A DNA stretch of 64,000 nt from Collinsella sp. An268 (GTDB lineage Bacteria > Actinomycetota > Coriobacteriia > Coriobacteriales > Coriobacteriaceae), in the NCBI RefSeq assembly GCF_002159765.1, contig NZ_NFJH01000002.1, positions 124,001-188,000 on the forward strand, read 5' to 3'. Position 1 is the first letter of the stretch. Each line of letters opens with the position of its first letter. Below are positions 13,364 through 37,802 of the stretch, piece after piece. Below the pieces are notes generated by a model. The model had not been told where the DNA came from, made no database searches, and saw only the letters and a list, made by a program, of their open reading frames with translations. A program made the position numbers and the translations under genes.

Positions 13364-14041
13364 TTATGGCTGCTGCTTCTTTTTTTGCCGCTTTCTCAGG
13401 AACCAACCTCCGACCATGAAAACGATGGCAAAGGCCGTCAGCACCATAATCTCGTTTCGGTATGCTTCATTCAACGCGATGCCCAAAGAGCATACGAGCA
13501 AAACTCCCGCAGTGTAAGAGATGTAATCATGCTCAATAAGGAAGCGCATGGCGCGCGTGCGCCACGTATCCTCCGACAACGCGTGATCGATAAGATAGCG
13601 GTTGATCTCGGCTGTGGTTTGGAGATTATGGCGCCGTCTTATGCGCGTGTCGAGTGCTGACGCAAGCACCGTAACACCGCAGATAAACCAATAGAGCCAC
13701 CAAAGGAGGTCGGATGCAAGCGGGCCAAGTTCATCGCTCCTGATGAGTATTATGCCTGCCTCGATGAAGCTGCCGCACGTATACAAGCTGTTCACAAGCA
13801 GAAAGTCACGCGCCTCATCGTCCACGCGCTGAGCGATTTCGGGGGCATCGTCGCCTATGAGGGCATCTACCGTGGTGCCAAAGGTGCCCGCGATGCGTTT
13901 TAGGCTCTCGATATCGGGAAGCGTGCGGTTGCGCTCCCAGTTCGAGATGGTTTGCCGGCTGACGTAGCAGGATTTTGCCAGGTCGTCCTGTAGAAGTCCT
14001 GCCGCTTCGCGGTGCTCGCGTATGCGTTGTCCAACGTTCAT
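13364..14041 (-). CDS. XRE-family HTH regulator with membrane domain
   Basis: A 225-residue protein with an N-terminal HTH_3 (Cro/CI-type) DNA-binding domain (about 4-60; SYVSRQTISNWER-type recognition helix near 28-40) and a C-terminal half with about four hydrophobic segments ending in a KKKQQP basic tail. It is thus a membrane-anchored transcription regulator. MNVGQ at 14041 was chosen because GAGGAGG lies just upstream. A second gene with the same design lies at 18604-19371. The divergent intergenic region holds two palindromes; TTTGACATTGTCAAA (14134-14148) is a likely operator for it. GC content looks lower than in neighbours. Confidence 0.82.
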   Translation of the reverse strand: MNVGQRIREHREAAGLLQDDLAKSCYVSRQTISNWERNRTLPDIESLKRIAGTFGTTVDALIGDDAPEIAQRVDDEARDFLLVNSLYTCGSFIEAGIILIRSDELGPLASDLLWWLYWFICGVTVLASALDTRIRRRHNLQTTAEINRYLIDHALSEDTWRTRAMRFLIEHDYISYTAGVLLVCSLGIALNEAYRNEIMVLTAFAIVFMVGGWFLRKRQKKKQQP

Positions 14042-18490: not shown

Positions 18491-18615
18491 TCTAGTGCCT
18501 AGTTGCGGCGGCATCTCGCAGGTAGGCGTCTTTTGTGGCAAGCGCCCTACCTGCATGTTTGATGGGACGACGCCATCGGTCTACTCGCCGGGGGCGCTCT
18601 CAACTATTCCCTAGA
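18491..18615. repeat. decayed copy of the inverted-repeat element, copy 3
   Basis: Left end TCTAGTGCCTAGTTGCGG (18491) and right end GGGGGCGCTCTCAACTA to CTAGA (about 18590-18615) match the inner parts of the 153-bp elements at 4758 and 44186, but the outer GGGGGTTATTAAT ends are lost and the right arm has several changes. The middle has its own hairpin (18518-18554, GCAGGTAGG with CCTACCTGC). The right arm overlaps the end of the following minus-strand gene. Confidence 0.65.
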
Positions 18616-19371
18616 TTGTCCCGTCCGCGCATTTCGCGCGTTTGAGCGCTCCCATGTGTAGGGAATCGTCCCGATGAGGAGCATGAACGCGGGCGCGATG
18701 AGGCTCGACGCGTCCGTCTGGCCGCGTGCGATGCCGATGCCGCTGCCGAGGGCGTACATGAGCGCGGAGAGCGCGAACCAGAGCGTCCAGAACCAGCGTG
18801 ACGTGAAGCGCAGGGCCCGATCCCCCCAGCTGCCGGGGTGCGTCGAGGCGAGGCTCGCGAAGTCGATCATCTGCCGCACGGTCGCGAGTCCCTCGCGGCG
18901 GGCGATGCACCAGAGCCAGATCCCGCCGACGACGCATATCCCGAGACGGAAGGCGGCGAAGCCCGTGCTCGAGGCGGGCGCGGGGCCACCGATGGCGGCG
19001 CCGTCGATCGCCATGGCGATGAACTGCAGGGCGAGCACGATGCCGGCGACCGTGCAGAGCTCGCGCCGCGCGGCGAGGGCGCGGTCGCGCGCGGCGGGGC
19101 CCGGGGAGGTCAGGAGCGCGTCGGCGGTGGTGTTGAGCGCCCGTGCGATGTCGCGCAGGGAGAGCGCATCGGGGATGGTGCGCGCGCACTCCCAGTTGGA
19201 TACGGTCTGACGCGTCACGCCGAGCGCGCGGGCGAGGGCGTCCTGGCTGAGTCCGCACGTCTGGCGCCGCGCCTTGATGCGCGCGGCGATGTCTTGGGAC
19301 AGGGGCGCGATGCGCGGCGCCGTGCGCCGGGCATCGCCGGGGACGGGGCTGGTGCGGTGCGGTGCGTCCAT
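18604..19371 (-). CDS. XRE-family HTH regulator with membrane domain
   Basis: A 255-residue protein with an HTH_3 domain at about 28-85 (SQDALARALGVTRQTVSNWE) followed by a C-terminal half with about four hydrophobic segments. It has the same design as the gene at 13364-14041. Its last codons and stop lie inside the right arm of a decayed inverted-repeat element, so the element fixed its C-terminus. The start at 19371 was chosen because it is nearest the HTH domain; no strong ribosome site is seen. A 28-bp palindrome 57 bp upstream is a likely autoregulatory operator. Confidence 0.8.
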   Translation of the reverse strand: MDAPHRTSPVPGDARRTAPRIAPLSQDIAARIKARRQTCGLSQDALARALGVTRQTVSNWECARTIPDALSLRDIARALNTTADALLTSPGPAARDRALAARRELCTVAGIVLALQFIAMAIDGAAIGGPAPASSTGFAAFRLGICVVGGIWLWCIARREGLATVRQMIDFASLASTHPGSWGDRALRFTSRWFWTLWFALSALMYALGSGIGIARGQTDASSLIAPAFMLLIGTIPYTWERSNARNARTGQSRE

Positions 19372-19427
19372 GGTTCGCTCGCAATCGTCGGGTGCGTTTC
19401 CCCCATCGTACCCGTTTGTTTGGCCCC

Positions 19428-19455
19428 GACCGTGCAAAACATGTTTGACACGGTC
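19428..19455. promoter_or_regulatory. 28-bp near-perfect palindrome, likely operator
   Basis: GACCGTG and CACGGTC flank the palindromic core AAACATGTTT; only two symmetric positions break the dyad. It lies upstream of the HTH-membrane gene and contains TTTGACA, also present at 14134 before the related regulator. Confidence 0.6.
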
Positions 19456-19504: not shown

Positions 19505-20962
19505 CTAGCGGTCGAGGTCGGCGAGCTCGCCCAAGTCGGCGAGGTCGAGGCCGCCCGCGTCTACGAGCGTGCCCGGCGCGGCGGCCTGACCCGCCTGCGT
19601 GGTGGGGATCGCCCCCGAGAGCTGTCCCGCGATGCTCTCGGCCCTGAGGGAGCAAAACGTCTCGAGCGCGTCGACGCCTGCAAGCCATTCGTCATAGGTC
19701 ACATAGGCGGTCGGGTCGGGCGCCACGTAGGGCGCGATGAGCTCGCGGGCGCGCCCGACGGTCCTCGCGAGCCTGCCCGCCCCCACAAAGCCATCGACGA
19801 GTTCCTGCAGGTAGGCATGGTACCGGGCACGGTAGCCGTCACGCTCCATGAGGCGGCTGAAGAGCGGGCGCCTGGCAAGGATGTCTGCCGCCGCCGGTTC
19901 GTCGATGGGGAGGTTGACGTAGGTGCCCGCGTCGTCCGCGAGCTCCGGGCGGCCGAGGGCATAGGTTCCAAAGGCGAGGTTGTAATCCCAAGGGAGCATC
20001 TGGATGCGCCCCTCGTCCTCATACAGTAGGTAATTGTGACCCGTGTGGCCGAGGTAGCTGTCGAGGTTCGCCACGAATACCTGCGCTGCGAAGTAGCGAA
20101 GCGTAGCGTCCACATCGACGGCGGCCTCGACCTCGCCCGCGTCGAGCAGCCTGAGCGCGCGGATGAGCCGCGCCTCGGCCCCGGCGTCGACGGGGGTGAG
20201 GGCCTCGTCGAAGATGCCAGGGTAGCGCGCAGGGTCATCACCCAGGTAGCAGAGCGCGACGTCGGCGTTCTCAGCTTCAAGCGAGCGGTAGTCCGGCTTG
20301 TAGAGCACGCCGTGGGACGGTCCCCATATGCGCCGCGCAAAGGCGTCCTCGGGTTCCTCAATGGCGAGGTAGAGGCCGATGCGCGTGCCGTTTGCGCGCA
20401 CCTCGGTAAAGCTCGTCGCCGGTGCGGGCACGCCGAGGTGGCGCATGAGGGCGAACGCGAGAGGGGTCTTGAGGTAGCTGTTGTCCTGAAACGAGGCGTC
20501 GAGCGAGAGCTTGTCGAGCCCGTGGTACGTGAGGCCTGCGCGGTAGTGGTCGAATTCGATCTTCATGCTGAAACGCGTGAGACCCCGGCGGGTCACGTGG
20601 GAAAGGGAGTTGTTGCCCTTGGCGCGCAGCCCCACGCCCTCGAGGCGCTCGCCGTCGATGACCGCATCGACCTCGACGTATTCCTCCGCGCTGGCGTTTG
20701 CCAGAAAGGCGTCCCAGTCGGCGACGGCAAGGTCGATGGTGTGGACGCGCTCGGCGGTAAAGAGCCGCTCGAGATAGCCCGTGTTGCGCGCGGGTCGGAC
20801 GATGCCGGCTGCCCCGGCGGCGGCGAGCGCCGCGGTGAGGCCGAGGCCCGCGGCGAGGGCGAGAAACGCCGCGCGATCGAGCGCGCGCTCGCGGGGCCGG
20901 GCGGCGCCTCCCGGGCGGGGGCGGGCGCTTTGGGCGCCGGGGCTGTCGCGGTCCACCGTCAA
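19505..20962 (-). CDS. CotH kinase family protein
   Basis: A 485-residue CotH-type protein kinase-like enzyme. After a basic N-terminus with one hydrophobic segment (about 32-52), it shows the family pattern: GNNSLSHVTRRG near 120, KLSLDASFQDNSYLK near 150, and GHNYLLYED followed by MLPWDYNLAFG near 325. Known CotH kinases phosphorylate secreted or surface proteins; here the single segment suggests an extracytoplasmic domain. The C-terminus is Asp/Leu/Gly-rich. Its ATG overlaps the DUF4956 stop. It closes a four-gene operon with VTC and a secreted Tyr/Asp-rich protein, which is a candidate substrate (inference). Confidence 0.88.
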   Translation of the reverse strand: MTVDRDSPGAQSARPRPGGAARPRERALDRAAFLALAAGLGLTAALAAAGAAGIVRPARNTGYLERLFTAERVHTIDLAVADWDAFLANASAEEYVEVDAVIDGERLEGVGLRAKGNNSLSHVTRRGLTRFSMKIEFDHYRAGLTYHGLDKLSLDASFQDNSYLKTPLAFALMRHLGVPAPATSFTEVRANGTRIGLYLAIEEPEDAFARRIWGPSHGVLYKPDYRSLEAENADVALCYLGDDPARYPGIFDEALTPVDAGAEARLIRALRLLDAGEVEAAVDVDATLRYFAAQVFVANLDSYLGHTGHNYLLYEDEGRIQMLPWDYNLAFGTYALGRPELADDAGTYVNLPIDEPAAADILARRPLFSRLMERDGYRARYHAYLQELVDGFVGAGRLARTVGRARELIAPYVAPDPTAYVTYDEWLAGVDALETFCSLRAESIAGQLSGAIPTTQAGQAAAPGTLVDAGGLDLADLGELADLDR

Positions 20963-21633
20963 CCCTGGTAGTCGCCGTTGTAGGACACAAGCAGCGCCTC
21001 GGTCACCGCGGGCAGCGCGTCGAGCGCGGCCACGATGTCGGTCTTGCCGTCTGCGAGGCGCACCTCGTACGTGAGGTCGAGCGCGCCCGCTGCGACCTGC
21101 TTAGCCTTGAGGCTCTGGGCGCGCGTGCCCGCCTGGATGAGCGCGGTTACCTCCGCCTCGTCCGCATCGGCACCGCAGCGCACGACGAGAAGGTAGGGTC
21201 GGTCGTTGGCGGCGCGCCCCGTGAGCAGGAGCAGCGCGAGTCCGATGAAGATGCAGCCAAAGATCGCGAGGAACAGAAGCCCTGCGGCGAGCACGATGCC
21301 CGTGGCGATGCACCAGAACAGAAAGACGATGTCGAGCGGCTCTTTGACCGGCGTGCGGAAGCGCACGATGGAGAGCGCACCCACCATGCCGAGCGAGAGC
21401 AGCACGTTGCTCGAGACCGCGAGGATGACGAGCGTCGTCACGAGCGTGATCACCACGAGGCAGACCCCAAAGGTCGAGGAGTAGAGGATGCCGGTGGTGG
21501 TCCTGCGGTAGATGAGGAAGATGAAGAGGCCGAGCGCGCCGGCGAGCACCATCGCCACGATCATGTCGATGAGGGGGACGGCGGTCATGCGGTCGAGAAA
21601 GGCGGAGGTGAAGATGTCGTTGAAGGTGGTCAT
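20959..21633 (-). CDS. DUF4956 membrane protein
   Basis: A 224-residue DUF4956 protein with about four membrane segments in the first 135 residues, including the family-like SLGMVGALSIVRFRTPVKEPLDI loop split across about 84-106, and a cytoplasmic-type domain of about 85 residues. DUF4956 genes are regularly found next to VTC-domain and CotH genes; the shared role is not established. It overlaps CotH by 4 bp and follows VTC by 40 bp. Confidence 0.87.
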   Translation of the reverse strand: MTTFNDIFTSAFLDRMTAVPLIDMIVAMVLAGALGLFIFLIYRRTTTGILYSSTFGVCLVVITLVTTLVILAVSSNVLLSLGMVGALSIVRFRTPVKEPLDIVFLFWCIATGIVLAAGLLFLAIFGCIFIGLALLLLTGRAANDRPYLLVVRCGADADEAEVTALIQAGTRAQSLKAKQVAAGALDLTYEVRLADGKTDIVAALDALPAVTEALLVSYNGDYQG

Positions 21634-21673
21634 GGATAATCCTCAGGGTCGGGGGCGCTGGCAGGGCGGGCGT

Positions 21674-22384
21674 CTACTCGAGGCGGCGGGCGAGGGCGTA
21701 CTTGGACCATGCCGTGCGGGCTGTGCCCGGCCGGACGGCGTCGGCGACCCACGCGGGCAGGAAGGCGTCGTACTTCACCTCGACGACGGCCTCGCCGGGT
21801 GCGACGGGTACGAGTAGGTGCGCCGGGTCGAACAGGGCATCCGGGTGCGGGTGGGCGCGCACGTCTGTGTCGAGCGTGATGCGGGCGTTGCCCGCGCGGT
21901 GGAGATAGGCCTCACGCTCGTAGACGACGACGGTGCGCGCGACGAGGGGCTCGGCTGCCGTGAGGGCGCAGAACTCGGCGAGCACGGGGTCGAGCGGGCT
22001 GTCGGGAGGGTTGAGCGCCGCCATGAGGGAGGCCTCGGTGGGGCCCGGTGCGGCGAGCACGTAGGCCTGCTCGGGCGTGAGCGCCGCCTTCGCCTTGGTT
22101 CCCAGGCCCGCGCGCTTCATCTTCTTCTCGAGCACGAAGGCGCGGGGTGCGTCGTCGGCGCCATCCGTGTACGTTCGCAGCCGCCATTTGGCGCGCCGGG
22201 AATAGCCCTCGTGGCCGGCGCGGAGCGCGCCGTCTGCCGGCGTGTCGAAATAGAGGCTCCTCACGGTGTAGCGGCCGTCCGCTCCGGCGTGCGGGTCGCG
22301 GGGGAGCAGCGCGCCGAGGCGCCGTGAGAGCACGAGCGCCTCGGTGGCGGGAACCGCGAACTTGAGCTCATGGCGCGGGGTCAT
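21674..22384 (-). CDS. VTC-domain polyphosphate polymerase-like protein
   Basis: A 236-residue VTC (CYTH-like tunnel) domain protein. The charged residues that line the polyphosphate tunnel in the family are present: HELKF at the N-terminus, SLYFDTP near 47, RRAKWRLR near 65-72, LEKKMK near 86, VVYERE, RITLDTD, VVEVKYD and SKYALARR at the end. Such domains polymerise ATP phosphate into polyphosphate. No membrane segment is present, so DUF4956 may supply the membrane partner (inference). Spacing is 18 bp from the upstream secreted-protein gene. Confidence 0.87.
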   Translation of the reverse strand: MTPRHELKFAVPATEALVLSRRLGALLPRDPHAGADGRYTVRSLYFDTPADGALRAGHEGYSRRAKWRLRTYTDGADDAPRAFVLEKKMKRAGLGTKAKAALTPEQAYVLAAPGPTEASLMAALNPPDSPLDPVLAEFCALTAAEPLVARTVVVYEREAYLHRAGNARITLDTDVRAHPHPDALFDPAHLLVPVAPGEAVVEVKYDAFLPAWVADAVRPGTARTAWSKYALARRLE

Positions 22385-22402
22385 CGGCGTGCGGGTTCCG
22401 CG

Positions 22403-23251
22403 CTAGTCATCGTAGCCGGAGTAGCCCGAGGCGCTGTCGTATCCGGAGTTGCTGTCGTAGCCGGAGTAGCCCGAGTTGCCGCCGGATGGGGCAGGGGCAG
22501 GCGTGGGCGCCGGGGTGTGCGTGGCGCCGCCGGACGTGGTGCCCGTCGTCGCGGGTGCCGAGCTCGCGGGCGCCGATGCGGCGGGCGCCGAGGTAGCAGG
22601 TGCGCTCGCGGCGGGCTCGACGTAGTCGGTCACGCCGTCGTTCAGCGCGCCGTAGTCGGAGTCGTAGTAGTCGGTCACGCCGTCGTTGTCGGGGCCGTAG
22701 TCGGTGTCACCGTAATCGGTCCAGCCGTAGTTGCTCGCCCCGGTGACCGTCATGGGCGCCGTGAGGTTCTGGCTCACCACGTAGGACTGCGAATCATGCA
22801 CGATGTTGCGCAAGAAGTCGCTTGAGGGCAGGCTCGAGCCCTGCTCGACCTCGAGGCCGATGGCGTTTGTGCCCGCACCCTCGATCTCCTCCACAAAGTA
22901 GCCGGCCTCGCGGATCTTGGTGACGAGCGCCTGCACGGCGGCGCGGCACTCCTGCCCCTCATAGGAGGCGAGGTCGAGCGCCATTGCGCGGGCGTCGTCG
23001 TTGAGCTCCTCGACGCCCACGACCTTGCCCTGGGCATCGTAGTGAATGGCGAACTCGGGGTTCACGCGCAGGATGAGGGTGCCGCCGCCCTCGGGATAGG
23101 GCAGCTGCTCCTCGGTGACGGCCGTGGCGTCCGCGGAGGCGGCCGGTGCGGCGATGAGGCCCGTGCCCTGCGCGAGGGCGAAGCCGGCGCCGCCTCCCAC
23201 AATCAAAGCGAGCAGCGTGGCGAGCAGGACGGTTAAGTTCTTGTTCGTCAT
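22403..23251 (-). CDS. secreted or anchored protein with RsgI-like domain and Tyr/Asp/Gly-rich repeats
   Basis: A 282-residue protein with an N-terminal hydrophobic segment (about 7-28, LTVLLATLLALIVGGGAGFA) and then a domain resembling the RsgI/anti-sigma extracellular middle region (LILRVNPEF, VVGVEELNDDARAMALDL, about 60-110). The rest is low-complexity: TDYGDTDYGPDNDG-type repeats (about 170-205), an Ala/Pro/Ser linker, and Gly/Tyr/Ser/Asp repeats such as SGYSGYDSNSGYD at the C-terminus. The exposed Ser/Tyr/Asp repeats could be modified or bind cations. It is the first gene of the VTC/DUF4956/CotH operon. Exact function is unknown. Confidence 0.7.
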   Translation of the reverse strand: MTNKNLTVLLATLLALIVGGGAGFALAQGTGLIAAPAASADATAVTEEQLPYPEGGGTLILRVNPEFAIHYDAQGKVVGVEELNDDARAMALDLASYEGQECRAAVQALVTKIREAGYFVEEIEGAGTNAIGLEVEQGSSLPSSDFLRNIVHDSQSYVVSQNLTAPMTVTGASNYGWTDYGDTDYGPDNDGVTDYYDSDYGALNDGVTDYVEPAASAPATSAPAASAPASSAPATTGTTSGGATHTPAPTPAPAPSGGNSGYSGYDSNSGYDSASGYSGYDD

Positions 23252-23392
23252 GGTGGTCCCCTAGGTCCGGATAAAGCGTCGAGGCGGAGTGCCTCCTTGT
23301 CGATCGGCTCCCCGCGTGCGGGAGTCGGTCGCCCGGAAGGGGAGCCTGACACTCTTGTACCATGCCGCCGCCGGCATATTGACGAAAACGCC

Positions 23393-23446
23393 GTAAGTGT
23401 TATGTAAGGTGCGGCGCTCATTCTGTAAGGTTCGCGTAAGGTGTGC
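23393..23446. promoter_or_regulatory. four GTAAG repeats, two pairs of 11-bp period (Pho-box-like)
   Basis: GTAAG occurs at 23393, 23404, 23425 and 23436: spacings 11, 21 and 11. An 11-bp period is typical of binding sites for PhoB/PhoP (OmpR-family) regulators. The region before pstS (33902) has a similar series. The site lies between the VTC operon and the LOG gene and could serve either one. Confidence 0.55.
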
Positions 23447-33787: not shown

Positions 33788-34122
33788 ACGGGCGGCGAGC
33801 CGGCGCGCGGGCGCCGCACCCGTCTCGCGGACGGTGCGCGACGCTCCGCGCGGTGCCTTGCCGGTGTGTTTCAAGCGCGCGTCATGAGGGAGGGGTCATT
33901 TGTAAACCCTCCGTAAACCTGACGTAGCGAAGCAGTAACGTTTGATAAGAGGTGCGTAATGGCTCGCCTGCGAGCCGTGGCGCACCTCTTTTGTGGGCGT
34001 AACCTTCCTAATCGAAGTTCGAGCGGGCCGTATGTGACCAAAGGTCGGGTGCGGCAGCATGCGCATGCGAAAGCCTCTCATGCGCTCCGCCGAAAGCCAT
34101 CGTGTTCTTTGGAAGGAGAACC
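33788..34122. other. intergenic region with pst control signals
   Basis: The first 110 bases contain only GC-rich inverted segments that may end the dipeptidase transcript. From 33902 on come the 11-bp repeats and a GATAAG -10-like hexamer at 33944, then a leader of about 170 bases to the pstS start. Confidence 0.6.
33902..33945 (+). promoter_or_regulatory. Pho-box-like array: four GTA(A/G) repeats of exact 11-bp period
   Basis: GTAAACCCTCC, GTAAACCTGAC, GTAGCGAAGCA and GTAACGTTTGA follow each other at 33902, 33913, 33924 and 33935. The array runs into a GATAAG -10-like hexamer. This is the form of a PhoB/PhoP-activated promoter, expected before pst genes. Confidence 0.75.
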
Positions 34123-35055
34123 ATGCTCGCATTTGATTGCTCTCGTCGTCAGTTCCTCGGCCTCGCCGGTGGCGTGGCCGCCTTCGCCGGCCTCGGCCTC
34201 GCCGGCTGCGGTTCTGAGCCCGCTGCCACGGGTTCCGCCGCGGGCGATGCCGCCGCCAGCCTCTCCGGCTCCGTGACCTACGACGGCGCCTCCTCGTTCC
34301 AGGCCCTCGTCGAGGCTGCCGCCGAGCAGTTCATGACCGAGAACCCCGATGTCTCCATCACCGGTTCCGGCAACGGTTCGGGCACCGGCCTTACCGCTGT
34401 CGCCGACGGCACCGTGAACATCGGCAACTCCGACGTCTTCGCCGAGACCAAGCTCGAGGCCGACCAGTGCGAGACCCTCGTCGACCATGAGGTCGCCGTC
34501 GTGGGCATGGGCCCCGTGGTCTCCATGAACGTCACCGTCGACGACCTCACCCTGGAGCAGCTCGCCGGCATCTTCTCCGGCGAGATCACCAACTGGTCCG
34601 AGGTCGGCGGCGAGGACGCCGAGATCCATGTCCTCAACCGCAAGGCCGGCTCCGGCACCCGCGCCACCTTCGAGGCCGCCGTCTTCGGCGCCGATGTGCC
34701 CGACTTCGCCGGCGAGGCCGAGCTCGATAAGTCCGGCGACGTTCAGACCCAGATGGGCTCCACCGACAACGCCATCTCCTATCTCGACTTCTCGCACTTC
34801 GACGAGGAGAGCTTCAAGGCCATCAAGGTCAACGGCGTCGAGCCGACGTCCGAGAACGTCGCGGACAACTCCTTCCCCATCTGGGCCACCGAGCACATGT
34901 ACTGCCAGGAGGACGCCGACGAGGTCACCAAGGCGTTCCTCGAGTACATGCTTTCCGATGCCGTCCAGGGCTCGCTCGTTGAGGAGCAGGGCTTCATCCC
35001 CGTGTCCTCGATGACCGTCGTGAAGGACGCCGAGGGTAACGTCACCGAGAAGTAA
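34123..35055 (+). CDS. pstS: phosphate ABC transporter substrate-binding lipoprotein
   Basis: PstS binds phosphate outside the membrane and delivers it to PstCA. The 310-residue protein has a signal peptide with both a twin-arginine pattern (SRRQFLG at 7-13) and a lipobox ending at Cys29 (GLAGC), so it is probably exported by Tat and lipid-anchored. Binding-site words are YDGASSFQ near 50, GSGTGLTAVADG near 86 and KAGSGTRATFE near 177. GGAAGGAG precedes the ATG. First gene of pstSCAB. Confidence 0.93.
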   Translation: MLAFDCSRRQFLGLAGGVAAFAGLGLAGCGSEPAATGSAAGDAAASLSGSVTYDGASSFQALVEAAAEQFMTENPDVSITGSGNGSGTGLTAVADGTVNIGNSDVFAETKLEADQCETLVDHEVAVVGMGPVVSMNVTVDDLTLEQLAGIFSGEITNWSEVGGEDAEIHVLNRKAGSGTRATFEAAVFGADVPDFAGEAELDKSGDVQTQMGSTDNAISYLDFSHFDEESFKAIKVNGVEPTSENVADNSFPIWATEHMYCQEDADEVTKAFLEYMLSDAVQGSLVEEQGFIPVSSMTVVKDAEGNVTEK

Positions 35056-35108
35056 TCTCGCTTCGAAGCGACTGTACGCCTGTACTAAAACTGTTCGAAA
35101 GGTGCGCC

Positions 35109-36020
35109 ATGGCAAAGCAAATGCCAAAACGCAACCTTGAGAAGGTCGGCTTGAGTGTCACGGGCGCCTGCGTAGCGCTCGTGACACTTGTCGTAGTGGC
35201 GCTTATCTTCATGGTTGCGCAGCGCGGTCTCTCCACCTTCTTCAAGGATGGCGTTAGTGTCCTAGAGTTCTTCACCGGTACCAAGTGGAACCTCGCCCAG
35301 ACCAACGAGGCGACCGGCCTTCCCTTTACCGGCGCCCTGCCGCTCATCATCACGTCGTTTGCGGTAACGATCTTCTCCACCGTCATCGCCGTGCCGATCG
35401 CCATCGGCGCCGCCATCTACGTGGTCGAGATCTCGCCCAAGTTCGGCCAGAAGTACTTCCAGCCGCTCATCGAGCTGCTCGTGGGCATCCCCTCGGTCGT
35501 CTTCGGCCTCATCGGCTTCCACGTGATCGTGCGCGCGGTGCGCGTGATCTTTAACGTCGAGCTCGGACTCGGTATCCTGCCGGGCTCCATCGTGCTCGCC
35601 CTCATGATCTTGCCGACCATCACCACGCTCGCCATCGACGCCCTGCGCGCCGTGCCGCAGAGCTACCGCGAGGGCTCGCTCGCGCTCGGCTACACCCGCT
35701 GGCAGACCATCTGGCACGTGGTGCTCAAGTCCGCCACCCCCTCGCTCATGACCGCGGTCATCCTCGGCATGACGCGCGCCTTCGGCGAGACGCTCGCCGT
35801 CCGCATGGTCATCGGCGGCGTCGAGAACATGCCTGCCGGCCTCATCGACTCTGCGTCCACCATCACCACCACGCTCACGACCTCTATGGCCGTGTACGCG
35901 ACGGGTTCGGTCCAAAACGACGCCCTGTGGACGCTCGGCCTGCTCCTCATGGGCATGTCGCTCATCTTCATCCTGATCATCCACCTCATCGGCGCAAAGG
36001 GGGCGAAGGCTCGTGGCTAA
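35109..36020 (+). CDS. pstC: phosphate ABC transporter permease PstC
   Basis: A 303-residue membrane permease with six membrane segments and the EAA loop (EGSLALGYTRWQTIWHVVL, about 195-213). It forms the phosphate channel with PstA. The C-terminus overlaps the pstA start by 8 bp. GAAAGGTGCG precedes the ATG. Confidence 0.94.
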   Translation: MAKQMPKRNLEKVGLSVTGACVALVTLVVVALIFMVAQRGLSTFFKDGVSVLEFFTGTKWNLAQTNEATGLPFTGALPLIITSFAVTIFSTVIAVPIAIGAAIYVVEISPKFGQKYFQPLIELLVGIPSVVFGLIGFHVIVRAVRVIFNVELGLGILPGSIVLALMILPTITTLAIDALRAVPQSYREGSLALGYTRWQTIWHVVLKSATPSLMTAVILGMTRAFGETLAVRMVIGGVENMPAGLIDSASTITTTLTTSMAVYATGSVQNDALWTLGLLLMGMSLIFILIIHLIGAKGAKARG

Positions 36021-36969
36021 CACAACGGTCGCTCAGGCGACGTCCGGCGGCGCGCACGCGCCGGCGCAGGACGCGCGCATCCGCCGCGCCATGCGCAACG
36101 ACAAGATCGCGACGGGCGTGCTCGGTGCCATCGTCGCCATCGTGATGGCTATCGTCGTGGCGATGGTCGTCTACATCCTCTTCCAGGGTGTGGGGCAGCT
36201 GTTCCAGCCCGGCTTCCTCACCGAGGCCAGCCGTTCCAACGGTACCGAGGGCGGTATCGCCTATCAGCTGTTCGATTCGTTCTACCTGCTGATCCTCACG
36301 CTCATCATCTCGCTGCCGATCTCGCTGTTCGGCGCGGTCTTTCTGGTGGAGTACGCACCCGAGGGCCCGGTGACCAAGATCGCATCGACCGCTATCGAGA
36401 CGCTGTCCTCGCTGCCGTCGATCGTCGTAGGCATGTTCGGCTTCCTCATGTTCTCCGTCAACTTCGGGTGGGGCTACTCGCTCATCTCGGGCGCCATCGC
36501 GCTCACCATGTTCAACATCCCCATCTTGACGCGCGTCATCACCCAGGCGCTTGAGGACGTGCCGGCGAGCCAGCGCGATGCCTGCCTCGCCATGGGCCTC
36601 ACCCGGTGGGAGACGACGCTCCACGTCCTCATCCCCGCGGCCATGCCCGCCATCGTGACGGGCGTCGTGCTCTCGGCCGGCCGCGTGTTTGGTGAGGCGG
36701 CGGCGCTGCTCTTCACCTCCGGCATGTCGAGCCCGGCGCGCCTGAACTTCCTGTCGCTCAACTTCTCGAGCCCCACGTGCGCCTGGAACATCTTCCGTCC
36801 CGGCGAATCGCTCGCCGTGCACATCTACAAGATCTACGGCGAGGGCAGCCCCGAGGCGCAGCACATCGTCTGGGGCACCGCCGCAGTGCTGATGATTTGC
36901 GTGCTTCTGTTCAACGTGCTTTCCCGTATCGCCGGTAAGGCCCTCGCGAGGAGGATGACGGCCGAATGA
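36013..36969 (+). CDS. pstA: phosphate ABC transporter permease PstA
   Basis: A 318-residue permease, partner of PstC, with six membrane segments and an EAA loop (ACLAMGLTRWETTLHVLIP, about 192-210). It starts with GTG inside the pstC end and overlaps pstB by 4 bp. The N-terminal 35 residues are hydrophilic and Ala-rich. Confidence 0.94.
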   Translation: MANTTVAQATSGGAHAPAQDARIRRAMRNDKIATGVLGAIVAIVMAIVVAMVVYILFQGVGQLFQPGFLTEASRSNGTEGGIAYQLFDSFYLLILTLIISLPISLFGAVFLVEYAPEGPVTKIASTAIETLSSLPSIVVGMFGFLMFSVNFGWGYSLISGAIALTMFNIPILTRVITQALEDVPASQRDACLAMGLTRWETTLHVLIPAAMPAIVTGVVLSAGRVFGEAAALLFTSGMSSPARLNFLSLNFSSPTCAWNIFRPGESLAVHIYKIYGEGSPEAQHIVWGTAAVLMICVLLFNVLSRIAGKALARRMTAE

Positions 36970-37802
36970 GTAACACCACCGATGCGTTTCTCGCGAGTGT
37001 TGACTCGAGCGAGCGCGCGCCCCGCGTGACGGGCCGGGCGATCTCTGACGAGGTCATGCTCGAGACGCACGACGTCAACGTCTACTACGGCGACAACCAT
37101 GCCCTGCACGACACGTCGCTTAAGTTCCACACGGGCGAGATCACGGCCCTCATCGGCCCGTCCGGCTGCGGCAAGTCCACGTTTCTGCGCTCGCTGAACC
37201 TCATGAACCGCGAGATTAAGGGCTGCCGCGTCACGGGCGAGATCGTCTACGAGGGCCGCAACATCAACACCAAGACCGAGAACCTCTACGAGCTGCGCCG
37301 CTCCATCGGCATGGTGTTCCAGCAGCCGAACCCGTTCCACAAGTCCATCCGCGAGAACATCACGTTCGCGCCCAAGCGCCACGGCCTCAAGGACAAGGAC
37401 GCCCTCGACCAGCTCGTGGAGGAGAGCCTCCGCGGCGCGGCGCTGTGGGACGAGGTCAAGGACAAGCTGGATGAGAGCGCCTTCGCCCTCTCCGGCGGCC
37501 AGCAGCAGCGCCTCTGCATCGCGCGCACGCTCGCCATGCATCCGGACGTCATCCTGTTTGACGAGCCCTGCTCGGCGCTCGACCCCATCTCGACCCTCGC
37601 CATCGAGGACCTCATGCTCTCCATCGTGGAGAACCGCGCGATCGTGATCGTGACGCACAACATGGAGCAGGCGTCGCGCGTGTCGAACCGCACCGCCTTC
37701 TTCTACATGGGCGACATGGTCGAGTACGGCGAGACGGAGCAGATCTTCCAGCGCCCGAACGACAAGCGCCTGAACGACTATCTGACGGGCATGTTCTCGT
37801 AG
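36966..37802 (+). CDS. pstB: phosphate ABC transporter ATP-binding protein
   Basis: A 278-residue ATPase that drives PstCA. Walker A is GPSGCGKST (about 61-69), signature LSGGQQQR (about 177-184) and Walker B ILFDEP (about 197-202). The first 30 residues are an extension. phoU and the phoR/phoB pair do not follow it, so phosphate sensing genes lie elsewhere. A bidirectional terminator follows. Confidence 0.95.
   Translation: MSNTTDAFLASVDSSERAPRVTGRAISDEVMLETHDVNVYYGDNHALHDTSLKFHTGEITALIGPSGCGKSTFLRSLNLMNREIKGCRVTGEIVYEGRNINTKTENLYELRRSIGMVFQQPNPFHKSIRENITFAPKRHGLKDKDALDQLVEESLRGAALWDEVKDKLDESAFALSGGQQQRLCIARTLAMHPDVILFDEPCSALDPISTLAIEDLMLSIVENRAIVIVTHNMEQASRVSNRTAFFYMGDMVEYGETEQIFQRPNDKRLNDYLTGMFS

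Follow-up and report, generated by a model that had tools for sequence, protein, structure and literature searches.

Described systems related to the locus treated here come from several settings. In the Bacillus spore coat, CotH phosphorylates the Ser-rich, basic Ser/Lys/Arg repeats of CotB and CotG (PMC7821199). At Pel exopolysaccharide clusters, genes for CotH, a polyphosphate polymerase, DUF4956 and DUF4832 occur as accessory genes (PMC7112168). The present analysis concerns an operon that combines such elements, found in a 64,000-nucleotide stretch of Collinsella sp. An268 (contig NZ_NFJH01000002.1, positions 124,001 to 188,000; hereafter the window). The operon occupies positions 19505-23251 on the minus strand and carries the genes for an exported repeat protein with an RsgI domain, a VTC protein, a DUF4956 protein and CotH. 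As judged from sequence comparison, these genes form one conserved unit, which in Firmicutes is linked to sigI-rsgI and to SigI-type promoters, and the repeat protein and the SigI-linked RsgI share disordered [ST]-x-Y tails. We lean towards the view that the operon supplies the effectors of a system that modifies the cell surface, in which CotH would phosphorylate these tails outside the cell.

The locus resembles the Bacillus CotH-CotB-CotG system in that CotH is encoded beside disordered, repeat-rich proteins and keeps the catalytic Asp. It differs in its membrane-anchored CotH, its acidic [ST]-x-Y repeats and the addition of VTC, DUF4956 and SigI/RsgI. With the Pel clusters it has the VTC-DUF4956-CotH trio in common, and the statement in the initial annotation that such neighbourhoods are known agrees with this published link. 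Where pel genes and DUF4832 would be, however, the window locus has the RsgI-domain tail protein. Inspection of the annotated neighbours detected neither pel genes nor DUF4832 beside the operon, which on that count is not a Pel-type accessory cluster.

In Clostridium perfringens, the NELoc-2 genes CP4_0458-0465 encode SigI, a 348-aa cell-wall protein, VTC, a membrane protein of DUF4956 size annotated as tubulin/FtsZ, and CotH in one stretch (PMC2879425, Table 4). Compared by the published gene list only, this is very probably the same kind of locus; the source lists the genes separately and draws no functional link among them. The SigI/RsgI systems of C. thermocellum and B. subtilis (PMC12203970, PMC10575876) are alike in having a SigI-type factor, an autocleaved SEAL-type domain in RsgI and a CGWA-type -10 element. 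Their RsgI sensor domains are mostly carbohydrate-binding, whereas RsgI here has an [ST]-x-Y tail common to the companion lipoprotein. C. thermocellum SigI6 also controls the CotH-dockerin gene cseP (PMC4711584). Yeast Vtc4 (3g3q, 8i6v, 7ytj) shares the catalytic domain and tunnel residues with the VTC protein, which has no SPX domain and is paired with DUF4956 instead of the Vtc three-transmembrane domain. No description of the system was found in open papers. Features that the initial annotation did not mention are the SigI/RsgI link and its promoters, the [ST]-x-Y regularity of the tails, receptors with such tails encoded elsewhere in the genome, and the Pho-type repeats.

A conserved four-gene unit

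A scan of named genomes for the repeat protein gave 173 relatives, of which 80 were kept for locus counts. The set is rich in gut metagenomes and provides evidence at the sequence level; the kept relatives belong mostly to gut Lachnospiraceae, Oscillospiraceae and Erysipelotrichaceae, plus Coriobacteriia. All four genes occur together in 69/80 loci, nearly always in the same order, which supports the proposal that they form one functional unit. The other 11 comprise six in which the contig ends within the repeat gene, one that is cut before CotH and four without VTC and DUF4956. In these four (L262, L310, L313, L319), the repeat lipoprotein gene is followed directly by cotH, and the rest of the fetched locus contains no VTC or DUF4956. 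CotH was found beside the repeat protein wherever the contig was long enough. The four reduced loci hence mark CotH as the tightest partner of the tail protein, with VTC-DUF4956 as its nearly constant companion. In most loci the ATG of vtc overlaps the final codons of the repeat gene, with a median overlap of 11 nt.

Among 298 sampled Coriobacteriia genomes, VTC is present in 95. A DUF4956 gene lies in the region of all 61 VTC loci examined in this class and nearly always adjoins VTC (non-adjacent in L054). The full four-gene set was seen in nine Coriobacteriia loci from three families before any seeded search, and two more were found later. By our count, the tail-protein type makes up 11 of about 31 CotH-linked VTC loci in this sample. 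Other CotH-linked VTC-DUF4956 loci include Pel-type ones; L041 is one of these, and the presence of PelG and of a DUF3492/group-1 glycosyltransferase was confirmed there. The expected association of the repeat protein with VTC/DUF4956/CotH loci thus stands in one direction only: most such loci in Coriobacteriia lack the repeat protein, yet the repeat protein practically never occurs without CotH. It therefore marks out one subtype within a wider VTC-DUF4956 core.

In the window, the four minus-strand open reading frames (ORFs) lie exactly where the initial annotation had placed them, with gaps of 18 bp and 40 bp followed by a 4-bp overlap. This overlap presumes a TTG start for cotH; a GTG start at 20956 is equally possible. 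The domain labels also stand, each Pfam match exceeding its curated cut-off (bit scores: CotH 188, DUF4956 37, VTC 100, RsgI_M 41). The genome of 2.37 Mb has a single copy of VTC.

The active-site residues of VTC, whose loss had been raised as a possible objection, are conserved rather than missing. Positions R4, E6, K8, K66/R68/R70, K88/K90, R157, R168, D172, E202 and K228 are invariant or nearly so in 21 diverse sequences and correspond to the tunnel Lys/Arg and metal-binding Glu residues. A single-sequence search of the PDB gave no match for VTC, and the profile search alone found one, the Vtc4 structure 3g3q (E 1e-11). VTC may make polyphosphate and move it across the membrane. The CotH profile matches the CotH structure 5jd9 (E 2e-21), and the invariant N299-x-D301 and P324-W-D326-x-N328 keep the catalytic and metal-binding Asp (D301, D326). 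CotH is predicted to be extracytoplasmic, and a Ser/Thr-rich repeat protein is encoded near it. For DUF4956, the AlphaFold2 model has a predicted local distance difference test score (pLDDT) of 80.6, and the best Foldseek match is the C-terminal domain of MgtC (2lqj, E 0.0038). Fold comparison beyond the ACT-like domain gave no match at E <=0.001, and the listed matches cover mainly residues 142-224. The MgtC match offers only a weak clue; it is notable in that phosphate uptake in Salmonella is a target of MgtC (PMC6658541).

Partial or divergent occurrences were also recorded. In three Coriobacteriia loci (L036 in G021, L045 in G144, L076 in G060), the VTC or DUF4956 reading frame is split or interrupted by in-frame stops, probably through decay of the copy or sequencing error. 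A search of a phage collection returned no relatives, and a plasmid collection returned a related CotH on a megaplasmid of Paenibacillus cellulosilyticus (L387, 44% identical), with no VTC, DUF4956 or RsgI-type protein nearby.

[ST]-x-Y tails on the repeat protein and on receptors

The repeat protein of the window is 93% identical to that of a relative, 'Candidatus Coprousia avicola'. Its RsgI_M/SEAL domain, the autoproteolytic domain type of RsgI, spans residues 57-171 and contains Asn64-Pro65, a pair that is invariant across 38 sequences. The RsgI structure 8t9n was matched both by the repeat-protein profile (E 1e-5) and by the predicted model in Foldseek (E 3e-5), and chain B of a second RsgI-type structure, 8hep, starts at the Pro that matches this pair. 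Only about five residues precede the membrane anchor, and Firmicutes relatives carry a lipoprotein signal. Sequence inspection revealed no cytoplasmic SigI-binding N-terminal domain, so the protein is not an anti-sigma factor. In the AlphaFold2 model, pLDDT is above 90 for most of residues 57-171 and below 50 for much of 175-282. The final ~110 residues are acidic and predicted to be disordered. They comprise calcium-loop-like DYGPDNDGVTDY repeats, a Pro/Ala linker and a C-terminal SGYD block, and the protein ends in the [ST]-x-Y repeats ...NSGYSGYDSNSGYDSASGYSGYDD.

The initial annotation described Ser/Tyr/Asp/Gly repeats in an exported protein. Export and repeats are confirmed, and the repeat unit can be stated more precisely as [ST]-x-Y. 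Over the last 110 residues of 74 proteins, Ser or Thr occupies position -2 of 896/928 tyrosines (96.6%), compared with 18.5% in shuffles; the remaining offsets between -5 and +5 all fall far short of this. The scan for relatives had been seeded with TDY-containing peptides, and the count was therefore repeated without such units, which left 473/505; nine proteins found without seeding gave 64/66. Phe or Trp in place of Tyr did not occur in the motif count. Both unrelated Ser codon families are used within the motifs of 60/74 proteins, which indicates that the residue is under selection and is not the outcome of mere DNA copying. Conservation of the final GYDD merely through the overlap with the vtc start codon was also considered. 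It is possible in many Firmicutes and is ruled out in the window by the 18-bp gap, as well as in RsgI. A nucleotide pattern search for C-terminal GYDD gave mostly chance matches apart from tail-bearing loci.

The same rule holds in the RsgI tails at SigI-linked loci, where 299/367 tyrosines follow [ST]-x-Y. Across all ORFs of at least 80 aa in 161 loci, 115 carry such a tail. A script assigned 103 of these to the RsgI family; the other 12 are Coriobacteriia system proteins, a lipoprotein from L147 and two contig-edge fragments. In four operon-bearing genomes of one Coriobacteriia genus (g1), an RsgI unlinked to the operon and a PepSY lipoprotein end in [ST]-x-Y tails. Their orthologues in 22 genomes without the operon (21 without a detected VTC-linked CotH, plus G282 with a Pel-type CotH) have poly-Asp/Trp tails with virtually no [ST]-x-Y. 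In Enorma massiliensis (L408:1181-4480), a 173-aa lipoprotein without an RsgI domain has 13/13 tyrosines in the motif. Its gene stands before those of an OmpR-type regulator and a histidine kinase, the latter with a block of [ST]-x-Y motifs in its sensor region (six in the whole protein). The occurrence of one and the same tag on unrelated kinds of receptor in genomes with the operon is as expected for a kinase substrate motif, and the poly-Asp tail where the operon is missing may fit a negative charge otherwise supplied by phosphorylation.

SigI-type promoters and Pho-type repeats

A SigI-type sigma factor and an RsgI anti-sigma factor adjoin the set in 62/80 loci, either upstream in tandem or divergent. 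Three examples match the NCBIfam SigI models at 1e-48 to 1e-51, below the models' strict cut-offs. This RsgI is separate from the repeat protein and has a cytoplasmic N-terminal region. A promoter of the SigI type (ACCCC-N19/20-CGTA) lies ahead of the repeat gene in 55/62 loci (17/18 divergent, 38/44 tandem) and ahead of sigI in 44/62 (16/18 divergent, 28/44 tandem); the chance expectation is about 0 to 0.25 per set. The pattern was tuned on the divergent loci, and the tandem loci constitute an independent test. It is consistent with the published CGWA -10 element of SigI promoters (PMC10575876). Among 19 loci without an adjacent sigI, two have a SigI-type promoter, both in Firmicutes. The promoter is missing at all Coriobacteriia loci, the window operon included, and the SigI-RsgI pair of the window genome lies on another contig (L147).

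Eight of nine Coriobacteriia loci have CTTACA-N5-CTTACA direct repeats upstream. A matrix built from the operon boxes only scores above the 99th percentile of shuffles in 12/12 tested upstream regions of pst, pit and pstB-phoBR in this class. The background regions from the same genomes were partly chosen by pattern, and the shuffles are therefore the fair control. In the window, a weaker copy of the repeat, in reversed orientation, is found ahead of pstS at 33901-33917 (box score 13.9, >99th percentile of shuffles), and the genome contains a PhoB/PhoR-like pair. The match of the 11-base repeats to those before pst, pit and pstB-phoBR suggests phosphate control, and in the window organism control appears, from these sequence comparisons, to have passed from SigI to a PhoB-type regulator acting through them. 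In Firmicutes, the same hexamer recurs with an 11-bp period, and with no other period from 7 to 16, between divergent units or upstream of sigI. Hexamer pairs exceed their own 95th percentile in 16/18 divergent and 25/44 tandem loci, compared with 1/44 in an internal control region. Pairs resembling TTTACA-N5-TTAACA precede several pstS genes in the same Firmicutes genomes, only some of them above their own 95th percentile.

Table 1. Annotated features of the operon, its upstream region and the phosphate transporter genes in the window
Feature	Positions	Strand	Basis
CotH-type kinase, signal-anchored, predicted extracytoplasmic	19505..20962	-	Pfam CotH 3.5e-55
DUF4956 membrane protein, C-terminal ACT/ferredoxin-like domain, possibly MgtC-related	20959..21633	-	Pfam DUF4956 2.7e-9
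VTC domain protein, triphosphate-tunnel / polyphosphate-polymerase type, cytoplasmic	21674..22384	-	Pfam VTC 1.7e-28
Exported repeat protein, 282 aa, N-terminal membrane anchor, RsgI_M/SEAL domain and tail	22403..23251	-	Pfam RsgI_M 4e-10
Tail-coding part of repeat gene	22406..22732	-	alignments, [ST]-x-Y statistics
Putative -10 element TACAAG (TATAAG in relatives), between boxes and leader	23354..23359	-	sequence reading and upstream alignment
11-bp direct repeat box CTTACATAACACTTACG, Pho-box-like, ~150 bp upstream of operon	23392..23408	-	
Second repeat box CTTACGCGAACCTTACA	23424..23440	-	
pstS-pstC-pstA-pstB phosphate transporter operon, 11 kb from the operon	34123..37802	+	

Further observations concern these upstream regions and the surroundings of the operon. 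Positions 23302-23347 (minus strand) hold a conserved, probably transcribed leader, GGCTnCCC...AGGGCGACCGACTyCC...GGGGAGCC, found in six Coriobacteriaceae loci. As a candidate riboswitch it had no Rfam match, and a consensus fold showed only slight covariation. In two f2 genomes, one of them Olsenella sp. An188, a perfect CTTACA-N5-CTTACA with a third unit adjacent (L159:8549, L160:8913) sits between pstS and a divergent gene pair (a 612-617-aa protein and the following gene). The neighbours of the window operon (DUF2252, LOG-type, PARG-type, DUF308 and a helix-turn-helix membrane protein) show no obvious relation to it. Two related helix-turn-helix membrane proteins are encoded at 13364-14041 and 18604-19437 (minus strand), one directly downstream of the cotH operon.

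A candidate surface-modification mechanism and its alternatives

In the proposed mechanism, a membrane-anchored CotH with its kinase domain outside the cell would phosphorylate Ser/Thr, and possibly Tyr, of the tails. The [ST]-x-Y motif would serve as a substrate tag in cis, on the operon lipoprotein, and in trans, on RsgI and other surface proteins. SigI would drive the operon in Firmicutes, and with the tag on its anti-sigma factor RsgI, changes in the modification or the tension of the tail could be relayed to SigI by way of RsgI's autoproteolysed SEAL domain. The cytoplasmic VTC and the membrane protein DUF4956 would make and/or move polyphosphate for the tails or for a parallel surface modification. 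The substrate step is one that we infer from strict co-occurrence and motif constraint; the phosphate donor and the purpose are guesses. The earlier proposal that polyphosphate builds the polymer is unproven, given the four loci that keep the repeat protein and CotH without VTC and DUF4956.

Several points weigh against CotH acting on the tails in this way. An extracellular kinase would be without ATP unless a donor were exported. The tails are strongly acidic, whereas the Bacillus CotH substrates are basic. Tyr is as invariant as Ser/Thr, which leaves room for modification of Tyr instead, or for a structural role of the motif. In genome G015, the operon is present, yet the RsgI tails are poly-Asp. 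G226 (L380) has two [ST]-x-Y motifs in RsgI with no VTC or CotH found, at a contig edge in a possibly incomplete assembly. VTC-DUF4956 pairs without CotH also stand beside Cthe_2159-type carbohydrate-binding proteins (L053, L052). Moreover, the tail swap in Coriobacteriia was probably one evolutionary event, mainly within one genus, which makes the correlation between tail and operon weak on its own.

A less probable alternative, which still deserves serious consideration, gives the tails a structural role or a role in binding (to calcium, cell wall or mucin, or in self-association as in Tyr-rich low-complexity domains). CotH and VTC-DUF4956 would then act on a different surface polymer, as has been suggested for Pel-type loci, and the tails would do no more than bind it. 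The central tail repeats resemble DxDxDG calcium loops, and the poly-acidic orthologous tails in operon-less genomes suggest that a plain polyanion is sufficient there. CotH, VTC and DUF4956 also occur at Pel exopolysaccharide loci without such tails (PMC7112168). However, neither a polyanion nor a calcium loop calls for Ser/Thr precisely two residues before almost every Tyr, inspection of the window operon's neighbours showed no polysaccharide genes, and four loci are reduced to the tail protein and CotH alone.

It is unlikely, though conceivable, that VTC-DUF4956 is an intracellular polyphosphate store under Pho control, with CotH and the repeat protein acting as a (poly)phosphate sensor that feeds SigI. 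Pho-type repeats of 11-bp period upstream of the operon or sigI, and before pstS in several Firmicutes genomes with the operon, favour this arrangement, as does the recovery of all tested Coriobacteriia pst/pit sites by the operon-box matrix; the kinase and the [ST]-x-Y requirement of the tail would nevertheless be left unexplained. Doubtful to a similar degree is an extension of the CotH-tail proposal in which exported polyphosphate drives the kinase. VTC would make the polymer, DUF4956 would pass it, and CotH would use it instead of ATP on the [ST]-x-Y tails of lipoproteins, anti-sigma factors and a histidine-kinase sensor. If true, the receptors of the cell would read a phosphorylation code on its own surface, and the supply of phosphate would set that code. 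A chance gene neighbourhood without functional coupling, for which no supporting point was found, is refuted by the conservation of the gene set in two phyla, the overlap of the repeat gene with vtc and the shared SigI-type promoters.

With the tail protein, the unexplained yet widespread VTC-DUF4956-CotH trio gains a testable partner: the [ST]-x-Y tails as candidate substrates, SigI/RsgI as regulator and phosphate as the likely input. The C. perfringens NELoc-2 stretch, so far a series of separate gene entries, gains a reading. If phosphorylation of the tails by CotH holds true, many gut Firmicutes and Coriobacteriia would possess extracellular protein phosphorylation with transcriptional feedback, and the question of how an extracellular bacterial kinase obtains its phosphate would become experimentally approachable.

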